Virus record (IMG/VR): IMGVR_UViG_3300023179_000008
Coordinates: 1 to 30,864 of that record
Strand: one strand, 5' to 3'
Origin: a virus
DNA length: 30,864 nt
Below are positions 2,739-22,222 of this stretch, one piece after another; within the stretch, counting starts at the first letter, position 1, and the number at the start of each line of letters is the position of its first letter. The position numbers and the translations under genes are program-made. Under the pieces are notes generated by a model. It made no database searches. It saw only the letters and a program-made list of their open reading frames with translations, and was not told where the DNA came from.

Positions 2739-4037
2739 TTACACGTAGGAATATTTACCGTAGTTGGGCGAAAGTTCGAAATACATCCGCATCATGATAG
2801 CATCAGCGTAGTCAGGTGACACGCCGTGCATGGCTTTTATTTCATCTTTTCCTGTCACGGCTAACTTTCCATCGGCTTCAGGTCGTTTGCGCCGAATCAT
2901 GTCGAGTTCTTTTGTAATGATGTCGCGCTTTGGCACTGGCAGAATAACTTTGCCTTGCTCAATAAGTTCGGCAAGTTTGTAATAGCATTCGGCTTTTTGA
3001 TTTGTGAACTTGTCAGGTTGCCTTGCACGCCCTCCATTTAGGAACCCTCGACAACGGAGCAGGTCGCAGGCTCCACCGCCAACCCCATCTTCATCCACGA
3101 TAACATTCGAGAGCTTTACGTTGTGCTTATTGATTGCGTTCCGAATAGCAGCCACCACTGTTGTAATTGGTTCCTTGCGTAGTTCGTGAATCTCGAATAG
3201 TTGAAGTCCTTTCCATACGCAAATGATTGTTCTGTCCTTTCCGAGCCGGGCGATGTCGGCACTGATAAACATTTCACCCGTTCCAACTTCCTCACGAAAG
3301 CACCGAAGTAAGTCATCGTACTTGAATAGCCAGTCAATACTTTCGTCAAAATCCCAGTCACCATGAAGCAACCTTTTGCGGTCGGTTTCAGGTAGTGACG
3401 CGAGCGTTTCAAGATAACTTTCGGGCAGGTGTGGATTGTCACCGGGTAAGGCTTGAATGAAAGCATATCGCTCATGTAGTGTTTGATTGCGCCACGGGTC
3501 ATAAAATTCATTATAGAGCCAACCTTTCGAAGGGTTGCACGTTAGTAGTGCTTTCGGCTTTATATCAAATTCGCGCAGCTTAAAACGAACGCGAGAGCGT
3601 AACACGTCAACGGCTTTCTTTGTGACTTGCGAAACTTCATCCACGTAAAAGTCAGTAAGTTCCAAGCCACCGAGCGAATCAAACACTGGATCACTTGGGT
3701 ATTGAAATAAGTCTTTGAGAATGATTTCGGACTTATTGAAGAAAGTAATCACGTTGGTTGAGCCGTTTAGTTCATAGTCGCGCCCTGTTCGAAGGTTCAT
3801 CATGCCAGCGACTTCAAAGAAAGTTTTTACAGTTGTTTTCTTTAAGGTATCGAGTTTGCTTCGCCCTATTAAACCACGAGAGCCTGCATAATGCAAGCGT
3901 CTCATGATTTGCCAAGCGCATCCTGTGAATGATTTCGAACCACCAGCTGCGCCACCGTATAAAACTATCTCACAAGGCGAATCGGTAGCAAGTGCCTTGA
4001 AGCATTCGATTTGTTTGGGTAGGTATTCAATACGCAT
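2739..4037 (-). CDS. terL: Terminase large subunit (ATPase and nuclease)
   Basis: A 432-residue packaging motor that pumps phage DNA into proheads and cuts concatemers. The ATPase part shows Walker A GGAAGGSKS at 28-36, Walker B FYVDEVS with Asp133-Glu134, and the coupling motif LLTCNPS at 164-170. The RNase H-like nuclease shows ISADIARLGKDRT with Asp261, NVIVDEDGVGGG with Asp315/Asp317, and SPDYADAIMM with Asp409/Asp412. The length is normal for a complete TerL. It is on the strand opposite to every head and tail gene, in the early DNA-metabolism block, and its start overlaps the upstream DnaA-like gene by 11 bases. A typical small terminase gene is not next to it. Confidence 0.96.
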   Translation of the reverse strand: MRIEYLPKQIECFKALATDSPCEIVLYGGAAGGSKSFTGCAWQIMRRLHYAGSRGLIGRSKLDTLKKTTVKTFFEVAGMMNLRTGRDYELNGSTNVITFFNKSEIILKDLFQYPSDPVFDSLGGLELTDFYVDEVSQVTKKAVDVLRSRVRFKLREFDIKPKALLTCNPSKGWLYNEFYDPWRNQTLHERYAFIQALPGDNPHLPESYLETLASLPETDRKRLLHGDWDFDESIDWLFKYDDLLRCFREEVGTGEMFISADIARLGKDRTIICVWKGLQLFEIHELRKEPITTVVAAIRNAINKHNVKLSNVIVDEDGVGGGACDLLRCRGFLNGGRARQPDKFTNQKAECYYKLAELIEQGKVILPVPKRDIITKELDMIRRKRPEADGKLAVTGKDEIKAMHGVSPDYADAIMMRMYFELSPNYGKYSYV

Positions 4038-6143: not shown

Positions 6144-6428
6144 ATGGCAGCACCAAGAGACGCGAATGGCAGATTGATGAAAGGACATTCAGGATTGAAA
6201 CCGAAAGGAGCGATTCATGAGAAGACTGAAATGTGGCACAAGCTCGGTGAGTTCATCGTGACTGAGGGAGCGCATAGGGCAATGGCAATTCTTATGGAAA
6301 TGGAAAATGAAGAATTTCTAAAGAACTACATGGCAATGCTCGAATACTTCAAACCAAAGCAAGCGCGAAACATTCACTCTGGTGACGAGCAGAACCCTGT
6401 TGTCATTAACATTCACGGCAATATATGA
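6144..6428 (+). CDS. DUF5681-like protein, alternative candidate small terminase
   Basis: A 94-residue protein. The N-terminus (RDANGRLMKGHSGLKPKGA) resembles the basic, Gly/Pro-rich start of DUF5681-type phage proteins, and it ends with a YFKPKQAR motif after a helical middle section. Proteins of this type often sit in the small-terminase position of phages that infect Bacteroidota. Here it is on the opposite strand from terL and about 2 kb from it. I use the ATG at 6144; an in-frame TTG at 6135 would add three residues. Its role in packaging is inference. Confidence 0.68.
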   Translation: MAAPRDANGRLMKGHSGLKPKGAIHEKTEMWHKLGEFIVTEGAHRAMAILMEMENEEFLKNYMAMLEYFKPKQARNIHSGDEQNPVVINIHGNI

Positions 6429-7012
6429 AACAATACCACGTTCCTAAGTCAGTCGAGGGCATAACCTTGAAGCAATACGTACAATTCTACACGGCAAAAA
6501 CCGATATTGAGAAAGTGTCAGCTGCTATTCAAAAGCCAGTTGCCGAATGTGAGCAGTTGCAATTTAGCGCGATTGAAACGATATTGAAGTTGTTTGTTGA
6601 TGCTTGCCAAAGTGGTGCGTCAAAACACGAGCAAACTTTTTTCGATGGTGACGTGCGCATGGGTTTCATTCCTGACTTGAATATGCTTACGTTCAAAGAG
6701 TATATCGACCTTGACTCTTTCACTTCGCAGATATACAAGCAACCTGTTGAGCCTGAGAACTACAAATATTTCATTGATTTATTTTGCATCTTATTCCGCC
6801 CTGTTAAAGATGTTTGGGGCAAGCGTTACGAGTTAGAGCCTTACGACATTCAGACCGTTCCAAACTATCGCGACATCATTGAGAGAATTACAATGGACCG
6901 CGTGAACGGTGCTCTGATTTTTTTTTCGACTATCGCAAACGAACTCTTTCAAGATTCGCTGACTTATTTGGAGACACAGATGATGGAAGCGGCGAGGGAA
7001 ATTGGGGATTAA
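6425..7012 (+). CDS. Tail assembly chaperone, unshifted product (gpG-like)
   Basis: A 195-residue protein read in the zero frame. The start overlaps the previous gene (ATGA). A helical protein with no catalytic motifs. It contains a run of nine T (6918-6926), where the reading ATT TTT TTT TCG can slip back one base into a second open frame that continues to 7191. This arrangement, a short product plus a less abundant -1 extended product just before tail genes, is that of lambda G/GT tail chaperones, which load the tape measure protein during tail assembly. Assignment rests on the frameshift architecture and position rather than on a recognised domain. Confidence 0.75.
   Translation: MKQYHVPKSVEGITLKQYVQFYTAKTDIEKVSAAIQKPVAECEQLQFSAIETILKLFVDACQSGASKHEQTFFDGDVRMGFIPDLNMLTFKEYIDLDSFTSQIYKQPVEPENYKYFIDLFCILFRPVKDVWGKRYELEPYDIQTVPNYRDIIERITMDRVNGALIFFSTIANELFQDSLTYLETQMMEAAREIGD
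6918..6926 (+). promoter_or_regulatory. Programmed -1 frameshift slippery site (T9)
   Basis: Nine T residues. Zero-frame codons are ATT(6917) TTT(6920) TTT(6923) TCG(6926). After a -1 slip the next codons are TTC(6925) GAC(6928). The -1 frame is open from 6883 to its stop at 7189-7191 and has no start codon needed for its own translation. The downstream stretch may hold a stimulatory stem, which I did not resolve. Confidence 0.7.
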
Positions 7013-7191
7013 ATCCGTTATCTAAATACGGGTGGGTTCATGTGCTTGAAGGAATAACCGAGCGCGATATGTCGAAGTGGGATATTGTACTAAACAAGAC
7101 AGCGTGGGAAGTGTTCACTCACATGACTTATTTGAAGGATTACAACGCAGAACAAAAGAGATTATTTGAATTAAGCAAGCATGGTCACTAA
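6925..7191 (+). CDS. Tail assembly chaperone, -1 frameshift extension (gpT-like)
   Basis: An 88-codon extension that joins residue 167 of the chaperone to give a product of about 255 residues. It reads FDYRKRTLSRFADLFGD, an acidic Gly-rich linker, then WGLNPLSKYGWVHVLEGI and a helical C-terminus ending ELSKHGH. The segment looks like real protein (aromatic-rich, amphipathic, no early stop) and explains the otherwise empty interval 7013-7180. Its stop overlaps the ATG of the next gene at 7181. Seen directly: the open frame and the T run. Inferred: that ribosomes use it. Confidence 0.7.
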   Translation, partial: FDYRKRTLSRFADLFGDTDDGSGEGNWGLNPLSKYGWVHVLEGITERDMSKWDIVLNKTAWEVFTHMTYLKDYNAEQKRLFELSKHGH

Positions 7192-9538
7192 CATATCATA
7201 CAACGTAATCATTGACAGGCTGAAGGCTTTCGCCACAGGCCACTATTTGATTAAACACTTTTCACATGGTCAGATTGATTTGCGCTATTTAGAACAAGGC
7301 GCGGATTATTACCCGTGGATGCACGTAATACCCGGCACGATTAACCCGGCGGAAGGTCTGCGCGAGTATTCATTCGACATCACATTCAGCGACTTGACAC
7401 GTGACAAAGAACATGAGTCTGAATACATACGCGAAGCGATAAGCGACTGCACACGGTTGGCTGAAGACTTGCTTGCTGAAATAAAGAACGGCAACACCTT
7501 ATTCGATTCGAGTGTTCAAATTGTGGATGGCAGTTCGATCACTCCATTCATTCATGAGGATACTCACACGCTGACAGGCGTAACACTTTCGCTTTCAATT
7601 CGCGTGCCTTGGGATTGGTCGGCTTGCGATATTCCTGCGGACTACGCTCCGGGCGGTTCAAGTTCGGGCGGTGGAGCATTTGGAGGTTGTTGCGTGACGT
7701 TGCAAGTTAACGGCACTGACAACGTAGATCAGAGCTTGTTGAATTTAGTTGAAGGCGAAAACATCACGCTCACAGATAACGGCGATGGCTCGGTGACATT
7801 TGACGTGACAGGCGGCGCAAGTACGTTGCAAGAAGTTACCGACTTGGGTAACACGACAACAAACGACATTGAATTCGGAGCAGGCGCAGGCGTTTACTTT
7901 AACAATGGTGCTCGCGTAACAGAGGGAACGACGAATAGTGGTTTAGGTGGCTACGGCGGTGTTGCATTGAAGTGTTCAGTTGACTATGAATTAAAGTGGG
8001 AAGCCGGGCGGTTGTATGTCATGCAACAAGATGGGTTTGCCATTCGCGAGGTGTTGTATAATTTAACAGCAACGCCAACGGTCAGCGATGATGATACAAA
8101 GGGTTTTGTTGTTGGCAGTAGATGGACACTTGACGATGGTTCAATTTATGAATGCACCGACAACACAACTGGAGCGGCGGTTTGGGTGTTGCAAGTTTCA
8201 GGCAGTGTTACATCGGTAGGAATTTCAGTTCCTACTCCTGCAAATCCAGCATTCAGTGTAAGTGGTTCGCCTGTGATAACAAGCGGAACTATTGCAATAT
8301 CAGCCAATGGAACGGCTTCGCAATTAGTGGATGGAACAGGAGCATTGCAAAATATACCGACATCATTACCACCATCAGGGAGTGCAGGCGGTGACTTGTC
8401 AGGCACTTATCCAAATCCGAATGTGGACCGCATACATGGCATTGATATGCAAAGCGGCACGCCTTCAACGGATGAGGTTTGGGTGTACGGTGGTTCGCCT
8501 GCGAAGTGGCAGCATCAACATTTGGGAGCTGACCAAGTGAATAACACGAGCAGCGTAACAGGTACGAGCGTAAAGGATGCACTTGACCATTTGAGTACAA
8601 CGAAAGTTGAAACCACGCGAAGCATTTCGACAACGTCACCGCTTTCAGGTGGTGGAGATTTGAGCGCAAATAGAACGCTCTCGATTGCGCAAGCGAATAC
8701 GTCAACAAGTGGATATTTAAGCAGCACGGACTGGAATACTTTCAATGGCAAGCAAGCGGCATTGGTTTCAGGCACTAACATCAAAAGTGTTAATTCAACT
8801 TCATTACTCGGAAGCGGCAACCTATCAGTTGGAACGGTCACGAGTGTAAGCGGAACGGGAACAACCGCAGGATTAAGTTTAAGCGGCACAGTTACGGGTA
8901 GCGGCAATTTGACTTTGGGCGGTACATTGAGCACGCCAGTCAGCACGATAAATGATTCAACAACGGTTGGTCAAAACATCGTGAAACTTGCGAATCCGAG
9001 CGCAATCACTTACCTGAAGATAGCAGCAGACAACAACGTTAGCGCGATAACTGCGGCGCAACTTAAAACTGATTTGGGTATTCCTTCGGGCACTACGTTT
9101 CAACTGGTTACAACTTCAGACCAAGCGAGTAATAGCACAGCAGCAATAGTTGTGTCCGATATAACTGGTTTGACCTTTCCGATTACGAGTGGAAAGCGGT
9201 ATAAATTCAAAGCATTGTTATTGCATACAGCGAATTCTGCAAGTGTCAGTATTCGTATTGGAATCAATGCTAATGTAGGGGTTACAAGCGTCAATCAACA
9301 GATATGTATAGTGACAACTCCATCGGGCACTCCAGTTGAGAATAGATTCAATCTTAACGCTCTCGGTGTAGTCACATTTGCAGGTGCTAATTCAACTGCA
9401 CAATGGATGTCAACAGTTGAAGGTATATTGATTGCGAGTAATAACGGAACGGCAGCGATTCAATTCAGCAAGGGTGCGGCAAACTCTGGTATATTAACAA
9501 TCAAAGCAGGATCAATTCTTGAATATTTTGAAATATGA
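7181..9538 (+). CDS. Tail fibre / receptor-binding protein with structural N-terminal domain
   Basis: A 785-residue protein in two parts. Residues 1-155 form a compact alpha/beta domain (ISYNVIIDRLKAFATGHYLI, YSFDITFSDLTRDKEHESEY, CTRLAEDLLAEI) of a type found as a separate tail protein in other Bacteroidota phages. After a Gly/Ser linker (GGSSSGGGAFGG), residues 165-650 are low-complexity fibre sequence with motifs common in phage tail fibres (GGDLSGTYPNPNVDRIHGID, PLSGGGDLSANRTLSI, STSGYLSSTDWNTFNGKQ). Residues about 655-785 form a beta-rich tip that is probably the receptor-binding head. It follows the chaperone and overlaps the next gene by four bases. Confidence 0.82.
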   Translation: MVTNISYNVIIDRLKAFATGHYLIKHFSHGQIDLRYLEQGADYYPWMHVIPGTINPAEGLREYSFDITFSDLTRDKEHESEYIREAISDCTRLAEDLLAEIKNGNTLFDSSVQIVDGSSITPFIHEDTHTLTGVTLSLSIRVPWDWSACDIPADYAPGGSSSGGGAFGGCCVTLQVNGTDNVDQSLLNLVEGENITLTDNGDGSVTFDVTGGASTLQEVTDLGNTTTNDIEFGAGAGVYFNNGARVTEGTTNSGLGGYGGVALKCSVDYELKWEAGRLYVMQQDGFAIREVLYNLTATPTVSDDDTKGFVVGSRWTLDDGSIYECTDNTTGAAVWVLQVSGSVTSVGISVPTPANPAFSVSGSPVITSGTIAISANGTASQLVDGTGALQNIPTSLPPSGSAGGDLSGTYPNPNVDRIHGIDMQSGTPSTDEVWVYGGSPAKWQHQHLGADQVNNTSSVTGTSVKDALDHLSTTKVETTRSISTTSPLSGGGDLSANRTLSIAQANTSTSGYLSSTDWNTFNGKQAALVSGTNIKSVNSTSLLGSGNLSVGTVTSVSGTGTTAGLSLSGTVTGSGNLTLGGTLSTPVSTINDSTTVGQNIVKLANPSAITYLKIAADNNVSAITAAQLKTDLGIPSGTTFQLVTTSDQASNSTAAIVVSDITGLTFPITSGKRYKFKALLLHTANSASVSIRIGINANVGVTSVNQQICIVTTPSGTPVENRFNLNALGVVTFAGANSTAQWMSTVEGILIASNNGTAAIQFSKGAANSGILTIKAGSILEYFEI

Positions 9539-9837
9539 AAACAATACAACCAATTCAATTATGGAGTGATGGCAAAATTCAAAATGCTGTTTACTTCAAT
9601 ATGTACATCAGTTATGATAATCTAAGCACAACGGCGGTGTTTTATTACTCGCTCATGGGTGAAACATTCGACTTGCTTGCGTCAGGTAAAATTGAAATGA
9701 CTGGCAGCGACTATCAAAATTGGGATGACTCAAATGAGGGTGCGTATTTATATGCGGCTTATGTTTTGAATTTAGTCATTACAGGCGATGCGGTAACAAC
9801 TGCCAGCGACACACCGAGCGATGAACAAACAACTTAA
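9535..9837 (+). CDS. Small tail-module protein
   Basis: A 100-residue, acidic, beta-rich protein, typical of a small conserved protein that follows the fibre gene in Bacteroidota phages (QLWSDGKIQNAVYF, IEMTGSDYQNWDDS, AAYVLNLVITGD). It overlaps the fibre gene with ATGA and the next gene by 17 bases, so translation is probably coupled. Possibly a fibre-associated or chaperone protein; its exact role is unknown. Confidence 0.7.
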   Translation: MKTIQPIQLWSDGKIQNAVYFNMYISYDNLSTTAVFYYSLMGETFDLLASGKIEMTGSDYQNWDDSNEGAYLYAAYVLNLVITGDAVTTASDTPSDEQTT

Positions 9838-10360
9838 GGATTTACTAAACATATTAGGCGCAGACGTTGTCGAGCGTGCAAAGAGTAATTTGAAAGTTAC
9901 TCAAAGCATTCGTTACCCTAACGGCAAGACTTACAAGCGCAACCGATATGCGACTGGTAAACTTTACAACTCGCTTACTTTCAAGGCAAGTGTAGCAGGC
10001 GGCAAACCGTTCATCAAATTCACAACAAAGGATTCGGCAACGGGGCAATACGCTGACATTGTCGAGTTCGGCAGAAGGGCAGGTGCAACACCGCCACCGA
10101 TTGATCCAATAATTGAGTGGATGAAAGTCCGCAAGATTCGGTTGCGTAACTCAAAGAATGAGTTCATCAAATATTCAGATGAAGCGCAACGCAATGCTGC
10201 GAAACGAATAGCGCAGGCAATAGGTCGCAACGGCACGCCCGGAATACTTTACTACACGACAGCACTTCAAGAGATATTAGATGAACGCTCGGATGCGTTT
10301 TTTCAATACTTGAATGAAGCTATATCATTCGAACTGGACTTAGACAAAAGAAACAAATAA
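9821..10360 (+). CDS. HK97 gp10-like head-tail/tail completion protein
   Basis: A 179-residue protein with features of the HK97 gp10 and virion morphogenesis group: an N-terminal helix (LLNILGADVVERAKSNL), a beta region with YADIVEFGRRAGATPPP, then IIEWMKVRKIRLR and a basic helix AAKRIAQAIGRNGTPG. Such proteins cap the tail or join it to the head. It lies in a continuous tail operon. Identification rests on the EFGRR...PP..I..W motif order. Confidence 0.75.
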   Translation: MNKQLKDLLNILGADVVERAKSNLKVTQSIRYPNGKTYKRNRYATGKLYNSLTFKASVAGGKPFIKFTTKDSATGQYADIVEFGRRAGATPPPIDPIIEWMKVRKIRLRNSKNEFIKYSDEAQRNAAKRIAQAIGRNGTPGILYYTTALQEILDERSDAFFQYLNEAISFELDLDKRNK

Positions 10361-17134: not shown

Positions 17135-17722
17135 ATGGATAAAAAAAGAATCGTTAAATGTGTCATTGACGAAAATGGCAAGTTAGGACTTACTGCGATG
17201 GGGCTTGTTGATATGCCTGCCATCGAAGAGAATTGGGTTGCGTTATCGAGCACCAAAATAAAGTTAGCAAGTGTTGACAACGAGCGCAGGATGTTATACG
17301 GTGCGGCTTTGATTCCCGAAAAGTTGATACTTCGCATTGATAAAAACAACGAGGAATACTACATGACTTTTGACAAAGCAACCATTGAGACGCTCGCGCA
17401 TGATTTCTACAAAAAGAACTTACACCACACAACTAATTTACAACACGCCTACCCAGTAACGGGCGTGACCATAGTTGAATCATGGCTTAAAGAAGGTGAT
17501 TCAGACAAAAGTATTGCGCTCGGATTGAGTGATTTGCCCAATGGTACATGGTTCATCGGTGCAAAGGTTGACGATGACAACGTATGGAATGAAGTGAAGT
17601 CAGGTAATATAAGAGGTTTCAGCATCGAGGGAATGTTCGTTGAGGAAGCCGTTGAAATGAAAGTGCAGAGTGTTGAATCTTCGTTATTAAAAGAGATTGA
17701 ACGGGTGCTTTCAATGGTATAA
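17135..17722 (+). CDS. XkdF-family prohead serine protease
   Basis: A 195-residue capsid maturation protease of the XkdF (S78-like) family, which trims scaffold and capsid proteins. Supporting segments are MLYGAALIPEKLILR (53-67), YYMTFDKATIETLAHDFYK, LQHAYPVTGVTIVESW with His104, GTWFIGAKVDDDNVWNEVKS, and GFSIEGMF with the presumed catalytic Ser163. The length is complete for the family. It starts seven bases after the tape measure gene and is followed by a strong terminator, so it closes the tail transcription unit although its product acts in the head. Confidence 0.9.
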   Translation: MDKKRIVKCVIDENGKLGLTAMGLVDMPAIEENWVALSSTKIKLASVDNERRMLYGAALIPEKLILRIDKNNEEYYMTFDKATIETLAHDFYKKNLHHTTNLQHAYPVTGVTIVESWLKEGDSDKSIALGLSDLPNGTWFIGAKVDDDNVWNEVKSGNIRGFSIEGMFVEEAVEMKVQSVESSLLKEIERVLSMV

Positions 17723-17772: not shown

Positions 17773-17805
17773 AATAGCGGGGCAACGGCTCCGCTATTTT
17801 TTTTT
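17773..17805 (+). terminator. Rho-independent terminator after the protease gene
   Basis: AATAGCGG pairs with CCGCTATT (8 bp), extended by GGC/GCT with one G-T pair around an AACG loop, then nine T. A strong intrinsic terminator. The scaffold and capsid genes downstream would therefore need readthrough or their own promoter; 17806-17858 shows only a weak -7-like TAAAATTG. Confidence 0.88.
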
Positions 17806-17858: not shown

Positions 17859-18458
17859 ATGAATCTTAAAGAACAAATTCTTGGTATATTCCACAAATTC
17901 GGAATTGATCCAAAAGAGCACGGTGTAAAATTCGACACCGAAGTAAAGCTCGAAGCCGAAGCACGTCTTGCGGATGGCAATATGATTTACACAACTGCTA
18001 ACGATTTCGGTGTTGGTAGTGACTGCTACATGAAAGATGCAGATGGAAACTCTTTCCCAGTTGGTGCTGGCGAATACCCACTTGAAGACGGCAAAGTTCT
18101 CATCGTTGGTGAGGACGGCAAGATTGCTGAAGTAAAAGAGGTTGAGGTTGAAACCGAAATGAGTACTGCAGATTTCATGGCAACTATCAAATCATTGTCT
18201 GAAAAAATCAGCGTGCTGACCAACGAGCTTTCTGCAAAGAGCGGTGAGGTTGCTTCAGTAAAAGAGGAACTTGCAAAGGCAAAGAACGAAGCCGTTGTAA
18301 GTGCTACCGAACTTGCTGCATTGAAGAGCGCACCTGCGACTACTTCAGTAAAAGAAAGAAAGAGCGTATTTAGTGCGGCTCCTGCTCCTGCAAAAAAATG
18401 GGAGCAAATGTCTTATCAGGAGCGTGTACTTGCTGAAATTCAAAAAATACAAAAATAA
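17859..18458 (+). CDS. Probable capsid scaffolding protein
   Basis: A 199-residue acidic protein between the protease and the major capsid protein, the usual place for a scaffold. Residues about 33-90 form a beta region (ARLADGNMIYTTAND, GEYPLEDGKVLIVGEDG). Residues about 105-150 are a coiled coil (TIKSLSEKISVLTNELSAKS, VKEELAKAKNE), followed by an Ala/Pro-rich linker and a basic amphipathic C-terminus (QERVLAEIQKIQK), as expected for capsid binding by scaffolds. Preceded by a 53-base gap after the terminator. Confidence 0.75.
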   Translation: MNLKEQILGIFHKFGIDPKEHGVKFDTEVKLEAEARLADGNMIYTTANDFGVGSDCYMKDADGNSFPVGAGEYPLEDGKVLIVGEDGKIAEVKEVEVETEMSTADFMATIKSLSEKISVLTNELSAKSGEVASVKEELAKAKNEAVVSATELAALKSAPATTSVKERKSVFSAAPAPAKKWEQMSYQERVLAEIQKIQK

Positions 18459-19439: not shown

Positions 19440-19970
19440 ATGAGTTGCGCATTAACCACAGGATTCACACTCGGATGTAACGATAGCATCGGAGGTGTAA
19501 AAAAAATATATATCGGTTCTTTTGATCAGTTGACTTATACAATAGGTGGAACTCCTGCCGAAGTAACAGCTGGAACAGGAACGGTTTTTACTTATGAGCC
19601 GTTAAAAAATACAGGTTCTGCGACTTTCAATCCTACCGTTTCGCTTGAAAATGGCACGGTGTTCTATACTCACAGCGTTTCATTGAGCTTAAAAAACATC
19701 AATGCTAATAAGCGTGAGGAAATGGAAGCACTTGCAAAAGCTCGTGTTGGTTTGTTCGTAGAATTAAACAGCGGTGAAATCATCGCTTTCGGTACAACCA
19801 ATGGGATGTACATGACCGCAGGAACTTTCCAGACCGGAGCTGCATTCGGTGACTTGCAAGGTTATCAGTTGACATTTACAAGTGACGAACCAACTCAGCC
19901 ATACACGTTAAATGACGCTACTATGACTGCCGCTGGTTACACCGTAAGTTCAACAACTGAAGCTCAATAA
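19440..19970 (+). CDS. Putative major tail tube protein
   Basis: A 176-residue beta-rich protein. The N-terminus has paired Cys (MSCALTTGFTLGCNDSIGG). The C-terminal half carries strands and a loop (ALAKARVGLFVELNSGEIIA, AFGDLQGYQLTFTSDEP) like a tail tube fold. Flanked by a hairpin before it and a perfect terminator after it, it forms its own short transcript segment, as would be expected for an abundant virion protein. A decoration protein of the head is the alternative. The tube role is inferred from fold-like features and expression context. Confidence 0.6.
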   Translation: MSCALTTGFTLGCNDSIGGVKKIYIGSFDQLTYTIGGTPAEVTAGTGTVFTYEPLKNTGSATFNPTVSLENGTVFYTHSVSLSLKNINANKREEMEALAKARVGLFVELNSGEIIAFGTTNGMYMTAGTFQTGAAFGDLQGYQLTFTSDEPTQPYTLNDATMTAAGYTVSSTTEAQ

Positions 19971-20025: not shown

Positions 20026-20415
20026 ATGGTTTATCTAAATACAAATACAGCAGGGCAAACATTACGGCTTTCACTCGATGAAGCACGGCAATACTATTTA
20101 ACTGCATTCACCGATTATTTGCTTTTGATTTATCATGAAGAAAACTCAAACGTGGGTAATTCAATCGCGCAAGTGCCGCCTATTGTTGTGGAAAACCAAC
20201 GCTATACAGAACTTACGGTAACGACTATCGGACTAACTTTACCCGGGCGTTATCGGTATGACGTATATGGTCAAAATTCAAACAGCAACACAGACCCAAA
20301 TGATGCAAGCGTTGTTGGTATATGTGAGCGTGGTTATTTGTATTTGAATGATTCAGGCGTTTATTTCGATGTGCCTACAATAACAATTCAAGACGATATA
20401 ATTTACAATGGATAA
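20026..20415 (+). CDS. Hypothetical structural protein upstream of portal
   Basis: A 129-residue beta-rich protein (LRLSLDEARQYYLTAFTDYL, TLPGRYRYDVYGQNSNSN, RGYLYLNDSGVYFDVPTI). It resembles a conserved small protein beside the portal or tail genes in Bacteroidota phages. The start is eight bases after the terminator and it overlaps the portal gene by eight bases. Function unknown; a virion component is likely. Confidence 0.68.
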   Translation: MVYLNTNTAGQTLRLSLDEARQYYLTAFTDYLLLIYHEENSNVGNSIAQVPPIVVENQRYTELTVTTIGLTLPGRYRYDVYGQNSNSNTDPNDASVVGICERGYLYLNDSGVYFDVPTITIQDDIIYNG

Positions 20416-22222
20416 CAATATAGTCAATGTAAAGTTGCAAGAATATACTCCAGTAAGTTCGGTTGAGCGTGTTGATCGTGGCGGCTGGGTATCTTTTGGG
20501 GTAAATAATTTGTTCCCACAATACTTGCGTGAGCTTTCAGAGAGCAGTCCAGTTCATGGTTCGTTGTGCATTTCAATCGGTGACATGATTGCAGGCAAAG
20601 GAATCACATCGAATACAGGGCAGGAGCGTGTTGATGCGCTCGATGTTTACGGTCAATACTATGCTGCGTCTCATGACTTCAAAAAATACGGTGGATATTT
20701 CGTTGAGGTGATTTATTCAAACGACCGCAAGACCATTGCAAAGTTGAAGCACTTACCATTTGAGGAATGTCGCATTGCGGTTGAGGGTGAAGATGAAGAG
20801 GTTATCGGAATTTATCACAGCGAAGACTGGGCGAATACACGCAAGAAAAAAAACAGACCGACATTCATTCCAAAGTTCAATCCGAGCATGGCAGTACAAG
20901 AGCCGTCGCAAGTGCTTTGGAAGTTTGCATATACAAGCGGACAGATTTATCCGAATCCTGACTATTGGAGTGCGGTAAATTACATTGAATTAGAGCGTCA
21001 GATAGGAATGTACCACGTGAATAACATCATGAATGGTTTATTTCCTTCATTCATTATTTCGTTCTTCAACGGGCAAATTCCACCCGATCAGCAGTGGGAT
21101 ATGAAACGTGACTGGGAGAAGTTACTCACGGGCGCACGCAATGCAGGAAAGTTTTTGATGACTTTCAACGAGCGCGATACTCCAAAGCCCGACATCACTT
21201 CATTCCCACTTTCAGATGCTGATAAACAATATCAATTTTTGAGTGAGGAATCGACAAGCAAAGTCATGGTCGCTCACCGAATTACTACACCTTTGATTTT
21301 CGGTATTAGAACGCAGTCGGGTTTTGGTTCAAACAAAGACGAAATGGCTGTTGGTTTAGAGATATTCACGAACCAAGTTATCGAGCCAGCGCAACGGTTA
21401 ATCATTAAAGGTTTCACCGAGATTCTATCGTTTGAAATTCCAAATATTCAGTTGACTGTTATTCCTAACACACCGCTGTCGTTCTCGGTTGCTACCGAAC
21501 CAGCTCCTGCACCTGCGCCTGTGGTACAATCACTTGAAAAAAAAAAGAGTTGTTGCCACGAATTGAGTGAGTGCCACGAATTAAGTGAGCAGGAAAATTC
21601 AACTGTTGCAGATGAACTTATTGCGCTCGGTGAGGATCCACATGAGGATTGGATTTTGATAGATTCTTACGAGGTTGACTACGATACCGACGATGCTGAA
21701 AACAAAGAGCTCGAAGTTATCGCAGCGCACGAATTAGCAAGCACGGGCAGAGCAACACCAAATCTTAAAAGTGGACAAGACGCTTTGATTGATGGCAACT
21801 ACTTCATTACTCGTTACGTGTATGCAGGTGAATTTAGGCATGATAACATGAGGGAATTTTGCCGCAAGATGCTACGTGCGAATAAGCTATATCGCAAAGA
21901 GGATATTGTTGCTATGGAAGGCAAAGCGGTCAATCCGGGTTGGGGTCCTAATGGTACAAACAATTACGATATATGGTTCTACAAGGGCGGTGGCAACTGC
22001 AAACATTGGTGGCAGAAGACCGTGTGGGTTAATAGCAAGGGCGCAAAGATTAACCCCGAAAGTGAAGATGCTCGCAGGATTGCGGTGGCAAAAGCTGAAC
22101 GCATGGGTTACAAGGTAAGGAATGAAGCACTTGTTGCAAAGCTACCTGAAGACATGGATTATCGCGGATTCTTACCAACGAATCCAGTGTGGGGCAGAAA
22201 TGGAAGTGCATATAAAAAATAA
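20408..22222 (+). CDS. Portal protein with C-terminal extension
   Basis: A 604-residue protein. Residues 1-370 form the portal (VNNLFPQYLRELSESSPVHG, KYGGYFVEVIYSNDRKTIAK, LKHLPFEECRIAV, HRITTPLIFGI), the 12-subunit ring through which DNA enters the head and to which the tail attaches. A Pro/Ala linker and a duplicated Cys-His stretch (CHELSECHELSE) lead to a C-terminal domain (about 460-604) with FRHDNMREFCRKML, YRKEDIVAM, NPGWGPNG and YKGGGNCKHWW. This domain is like one seen attached to head proteins of other phages and may be ejected or capsid-internal. Portal identity is firm; the function of the extension is not known. Confidence 0.85.
   Translation: MDNNIVNVKLQEYTPVSSVERVDRGGWVSFGVNNLFPQYLRELSESSPVHGSLCISIGDMIAGKGITSNTGQERVDALDVYGQYYAASHDFKKYGGYFVEVIYSNDRKTIAKLKHLPFEECRIAVEGEDEEVIGIYHSEDWANTRKKKNRPTFIPKFNPSMAVQEPSQVLWKFAYTSGQIYPNPDYWSAVNYIELERQIGMYHVNNIMNGLFPSFIISFFNGQIPPDQQWDMKRDWEKLLTGARNAGKFLMTFNERDTPKPDITSFPLSDADKQYQFLSEESTSKVMVAHRITTPLIFGIRTQSGFGSNKDEMAVGLEIFTNQVIEPAQRLIIKGFTEILSFEIPNIQLTVIPNTPLSFSVATEPAPAPAPVVQSLEKKKSCCHELSECHELSEQENSTVADELIALGEDPHEDWILIDSYEVDYDTDDAENKELEVIAAHELASTGRATPNLKSGQDALIDGNYFITRYVYAGEFRHDNMREFCRKMLRANKLYRKEDIVAMEGKAVNPGWGPNGTNNYDIWFYKGGGNCKHWWQKTVWVNSKGAKINPESEDARRIAVAKAERMGYKVRNEALVAKLPEDMDYRGFLPTNPVWGRNGSAYKK
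21553..21588 (+). repeat. 18-base tandem duplication in the portal gene
   Basis: Two copies of TGCCACGAATT(G/A)AGTGAG in direct tandem, differing by one base. They encode CHELSE twice, in frame, in the linker between the portal body and the C-terminal domain. Confidence 0.9.

Follow-up and report, generated by a model that had tools for sequence, protein, structure and literature searches.

A conserved nine-T run and an open -1 frame point to a recoded, probably tail chaperone-encoding gene in a widespread group of phages

The window analyzed here spans all 30,864 bases of a virus record. It carries a run of nine T (T9) within a first reading frame and an open -1 frame that continues beyond it, and this observation is real. 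Comparison of relatives indicates that the run and the -1 frame are a conserved recoding device, and we consider a recoded pair of tail chaperones very likely, irrespective of the machine that slips. An earlier note on this DNA had placed the run at 6918-6926 inside a 195-codon ORF, with a -1 frame open from 6883 to 7191 filling a 168-base gap; all these coordinates hold, the ORF being 6425-7012, the gap running from its end to the next ORF at 7181, and the stop codon of the -1 frame being the TAA at 7189-7191 (Table 1). The 0-frame codons across the run are ATT TTT TTT TCG (6917-6928), so that the sequence T TTT TTT is correctly phased for a -1 slip. In the mechanism that we propose, ORF 6425-7012 and the -1 segment 6925-7191 would be a single gene with two products. 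The majority of messages would give the 195-aa protein and, in a minority, a one-base slip on T9 would lead to a 255-aa protein sharing its first 167 residues with the short product and continuing into a predicted 88-aa, mostly helical domain. We infer production of this fusion from the sequence; the predicted joined product includes ...NGALIFFFDYRKRTLSRFADLF... and its -1 domain shows the pattern 'GWxHVxE..D.TK......'. A further T9 is present in the window at 17797-17805, between ORFs 17135-17722 and 17859-18458.

Table 1. Features of the candidate recoded locus and of its neighborhood (positions in the window).
Feature	Position	Strand	Basis or remark
Large terminase gene	2739-4037	- (other strand)	several small genes between terminase and recoded gene
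0-frame ORF, short (G-like) product, 195 aa	6425..7012	+	phrog_32199; AlphaFold2 model pLDDT 86
Candidate T9 slippage site, phase NTT TTT TTT TCG, heptamer T TTT TTT at 6919-6925	6918..6926	+	sequence, conservation
Segment coding in both frames (0-frame tail, -1 segment)	6928..7012	+	dS suppressed
-1 C-terminal extension, 88 aa + stop, T-like part of predicted long product	6925..7191	+	open frame, dN/dS
Next gene	7181..9538	+	N-terminal domain of ~160 aa, then fibre-like-looking repeats
HK97-gp10-like / tail completion (Neck1)	9821..10360	+	phrog_5, E 3e-4; Pfam HK97-gp10_like, E 0.03
Tape-measure candidate, 663 aa	15136..17127	+	phrog_1506 (tape measure), E 1.5e-6; phrog_21537 (virion structural protein), E 1e-20
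Possible tail tube protein	19440..19970	+	Pfam Phage_tail_2, E 0.07 (weak); phrog_19091, no assigned function

Relatives were gathered from viral contigs with the pre-run part, the -1 part and alignments of the pre-run part as queries; because the alignment queries used conserved peptides located away from the run, the searches did not select for it. One scan reported 439 relatives, 80 of which were retrieved. In total, 150 loci were readable, corresponding to 148 distinct records (two contigs were counted twice); L083 and L152 were left out as the contig or the match stops before the site, and L188 as no site was detected up to the end of its contig. At 150/150 of these loci, and hence in 148/148 distinct viral records, the run is present in the same codon phase, as T9 or, in seven cases confined to one branch, as T10 (L174 has T9 as well), which bears out the conservation that the earlier note had predicted for homologues. 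The run is never shorter than nine T in readable relatives, all of which keep the slippery sequence T TTT TTT towards the first ORF's 3' end, phased for a -1 slip, and the -1 frame is intact over 81-94 codons wherever the contig permits reading to its end. This conservation extends over a wide range of divergence, with pre-run protein identity to the window down to about 23% and 18 lineages below 60% protein identity. One scan of bacterial genome contigs returned no relatives. Of note, in a second large branch (L120:3479-3746), the frame overlap beyond the run spans ~68 codons, with both frames open, and GGA stands in place of CGA after the T run. Homopolymers are prone to sequencing error, and this general weakness could be invoked to explain the run and the frame break as an error or as the trace of a decayed gene. 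However, 148 distinct records share this run and these two frames, as do cultured phages that were sequenced independently; this explanation was rejected, its probability being negligible.

Selection has acted on both parts of the gene. In three clades, the median dN/dS of the pre-run part is 0.05-0.11, and that of the part encoded only in the -1 frame is 0.118, 0.158 and 0.029, i.e., purifying selection, in line with the value below 1 anticipated by the earlier note (0.03-0.16 over the three clades). In this -1-only region, the -1 frame contains 0 stops in 2,688 codons versus 74, 199 and 101 stops in the remaining two frames (three clades, respectively). Whereas dS is 0.70-1.05 upstream of the run, it is reduced to 0.16-0.38 for either frame where the two overlap, implying that both frames are constrained. 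These data also bear on the alternative that the -1 segment is a separate gene starting at ATG 7069 or elsewhere. The window does carry the ATG at 7069, which the earlier note had named as the possible start of such a gene, but it is unconserved in relatives, and the -1 sequence located 5' of it (FDYRKR..F..F) is itself conserved and bears the constraint of coding in two frames. Since no ATG, GTG or TTG is conserved in the -1 frame of the relatives compared, a separate gene was rejected and appears very improbable.

Beyond the encoded proteins, the nucleotides of the run themselves are conserved. Across 18 lineages, T occupies codon position 3 in every lineage at 3/151 alignment columns only, which are exactly the three codons of the run. 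Its two Phe codons are TTT in 24/24 cases, versus an about even split between TTT and TTC at other well-conserved Phe codons. The comparison thus indicates that the synonymous positions of the run are under nucleotide-level selection; these positions are T2, T5 and T8, all within the heptamer T2-T8. Invariant T at codon position 2 is more common (13/151 columns, and 5/81 in the -1 frame), and T1 and T9, which lie outside the heptamer, may be fixed by amino acids.

Regarding the machine that slips, RNA polymerase and the ribosome would yield an identical fusion protein from T9. RNA-polymerase slippage also classically occurs on T9 runs that lack stimulatory elements, and in many Bacteroidota the ribosomes rely little on Shine-Dalgarno pairing, which would remove one kind of stimulator. 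Among 22 representatives, no stimulatory structure was found, z-scores downstream of the run scattering around zero, nor any Shine-Dalgarno-like signal; polymerase slippage is hence at least as likely as ribosomal slippage. We give about even chances to transcriptional slippage alone, in which RNA polymerase would insert one U on T9 so that part of the mRNA would carry U10 and encode the fusion. Besides the lack of a stem and of a Shine-Dalgarno-like signal in these representatives, this reading is favored by the length of the run, always 9 or 10 in readable relatives, nine being the threshold from which many bacterial genomes show evident selection against A/T runs (PMC1088944). In other ORFs of the same phages, A runs of at least nine are depleted (4 vs 12.1 expected) whereas A8 runs are not (21 vs 16.4 expected); for T runs of at least nine, only 0.7 were expected, too few for a test of depletion. 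The phase-independent A10 run that these phages carry in the portal gene, described below, points in the same direction. On the other hand, amino acid constraint could account for T1 and T9, and T2, T5 and T8 lie inside the heptamer, so T9 alone is no proof of polymerase slippage, and run length was rejected as the sole arbiter between the two machines. No published example of a tail chaperone made by polymerase slippage was found in the literature searched, subscription journals being mostly outside its coverage.

Ribosomal -1 programmed frameshifting alone at T TTT TTT (6919-6925), in the manner of lambda G/GT, is a serious candidate, at somewhat under even chances. Indeed, the synonymous positions under selection coincide exactly with those of the heptamer, ribosomal slippage is a known mechanism for frameshifted tail chaperones (PMC5009743), and the A8 and A9 runs of the phages phi10:1 and 11b considered below contain A AAA AAA. 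However, U_UUU_UUU is a weak ribosomal slip site in E. coli (PMC5009743), neither a downstream structure nor a Shine-Dalgarno-like signal accompanies it, no switch to another heptamer occurred across 18 lineages and avoidance of T7 in ORFs is no stronger in the slippery phase than in the two others, the numbers being small. That both machines contribute is quite unlikely. The earlier note had stated that lambda-type tail chaperones use exactly this device: the -1 recoding stands by comparison of relatives, while slipping by the ribosome is one of two candidate mechanisms, which sequence alone does not tell apart.

A second homopolymer deserves attention in this context. The portal ORF (20408-22222) of the window contains an A10 run at 21537-21546, in the linker between the portal domain and the C-terminal domain. 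After portal codon 333, the longest A run is A9 to A12 in 66/73 relatives (window included) and exactly A10 in 54, and a run of at least nine is present in 15/19 representatives (<95% identity) versus 8.3 expected from synonymous shuffles (P 6e-4); the P12024S portal has no A10-type run. In the representatives, both shifted frames reach a stop within 17 codons, and the run is found in all three codon phases, which fits polymerase slippage better than ribosomal slippage. It is possible that A10 is a second slippage site giving a truncated portal, and we regard it as a lead, weaker than the T9 site. A joint scheme, in which polymerase slippage on T9 would produce two tail chaperones and, in part of the family, A10 would give full-length and truncated portal, is tentative and possible rather than probable. 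If true, two structural stoichiometries would be set at the transcription level in a large uncharacterized phage family.

With respect to function, sequence comparison gave little guidance. The 0-frame protein is a member of phrog_32199, and in some relatives the -1 part falls into phrog_38404; neither PHROG family has an assigned function, and searches of Pfam, PHROGs and PDB sequences detected no homology to characterized families. Foldseek of the 0-frame AlphaFold2 model (pLDDT 86) returned nothing significant in the PDB. With VIA-align 2, the top row for this model was the HK97 tail assembly chaperone 2OB9 (residues 1-66), with a Z of 3.5 over 57 residues that falls in the chance range and is thus a hint, not proof. 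BFVD returned many uncharacterized phage proteins together with weak matches named tail assembly chaperone, again hints, not proof. The model of the -1 segment (pLDDT 61) was too poor and had no meaningful fold match. The G/GT-like identity, which is likely, hence rests on anatomy, neighborhood and these weak fold matches. By analogy, the two products would be tail assembly chaperones coating the tape measure protein and bringing in tail tube subunits.

The neighborhood is consistent with this assignment, the neck, tape-measure and possible tail tube genes of the same arm supporting a tail role. The ~160-aa N-terminal domain of the gene that directly follows also opens the next gene in the relatives L020 and L028. 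From the -1 stop it is 7.9 kb downstream to the tape-measure candidate, which is followed by the tail tube candidate; the recoded gene is thus not between the tail tube and tape measure genes, which is the usual, although not strictly defining, place of a chaperone. The earlier note had remarked on this distance of about 8 kb as unusual; the figure is right, and the distance is not peculiar to the window, since phage P12024S has the same order of chaperone-like, neck-type and tape-measure-like genes. It may be argued that a gene matching no characterized family and lying next to the terminase and neck genes rather than to the tape measure has another virion or assembly function. This is unlikely, as a small, two-product, -1-recoded protein in the tail gene arm is typical of a tail chaperone, and the weak fold matches to 2OB9 and to BFVD tail chaperones speak against it. 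The gpG/gpGT-like pair proposed by the earlier note can be retained with this distinction: the -1 recoding and the predicted fused product are strongly supported by the relatives, and the tail-chaperone identity is only likely.

Known systems help to place this family. The lambda gpG/gpGT pair and other -1 frameshifted tail assembly chaperones (Xu, Hendrix and Duda 2004, as reviewed in PMC5009743) have in common with it a short product and a minor -1 extension sharing an N-terminal part, a slippery run near the end of the first frame and a place among the tail genes. However, lambda has a slip site of its own whereas the site here is a T9 homopolymer, the lambda-like chaperone adjoins the tape measure, and the overlap of 74-248 nt from the run to the 0-frame stop is unlike lambda. 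Between lambda gpG/gpGT and this family, no sequence homology is detectable and the fold match is weak; the family most likely works like gpG/gpGT, its putative membership resting on device and context, not on homology. The closest counterparts among cultured phages are genes 38/39 of the Nonlabens (Persicivirga) phages P12024S and P12024L (JQ823122, JQ823123), which are homologous and share the T9, its phase and the -1 extension, at about 23-26% identity. This homology runs through intermediates (L164 to P12024S, E 2e-17). Both phages were cultured on a Persicivirga/Nonlabens strain, and the device is not annotated as a fusion: in P12024S, the homologue immediately follows the large terminase gene and is recorded as two separate hypothetical proteins, the tape-measure-like gene lying kilobases beyond.

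Homopolymer recoding likewise occurs in genes 38/39 of Flavobacterium phage 11b, with A9, and at the homologous site of Cellulophaga phage phi10:1, with A8. In 11b (L278:17864-18519), the -1 frame has 114 codons and its product matches phrog_441 (tail assembly chaperone); the two genes, both annotated as hypothetical, immediately precede the tape-measure-like gene 40. This type thus uses an A run and adjoins the tape measure, unlike the T run found here away from it, and profile comparison detected no homology to the 11b chaperone. As A9 and A8 both occur, run length is not fixed at nine in the 11b/phi10:1 type, and these runs are compatible with ordinary ribosomal slippage. Genes with programmed transcriptional slippage, i.e., the Shigella mxiE/spa genes, Thermus dnaX and Citrobacter tssM (PMC4256274, PMC1088944), share with the present locus a homopolymer of at least nine A or T at the frame transition and two products, which are predicted here from the DNA; unlike these genes as listed, T9 here also holds a ribosomal heptamer.

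As far as the records and papers searched show, the recoding device is unannotated, and no earlier description of this T9 site was found in that literature, which mostly excluded subscription journals. Both halves of the gene stand in databases as separate proteins or families (P12024S genes 38 and 39; phrog_32199 and phrog_38404), and the annotations of a widespread group of phages miss the predicted fusion because the halves are filed as separate unknowns. The phages carrying the device, whose cultured members grow on Flavobacteriia, form a group with few cultured members, in which the present analysis points to an uncharacterized tail assembly gene. This family would also be well suited to testing cleanly whether slippage by RNA polymerase, in place of ribosomal frameshifting, can set a structural stoichiometry.
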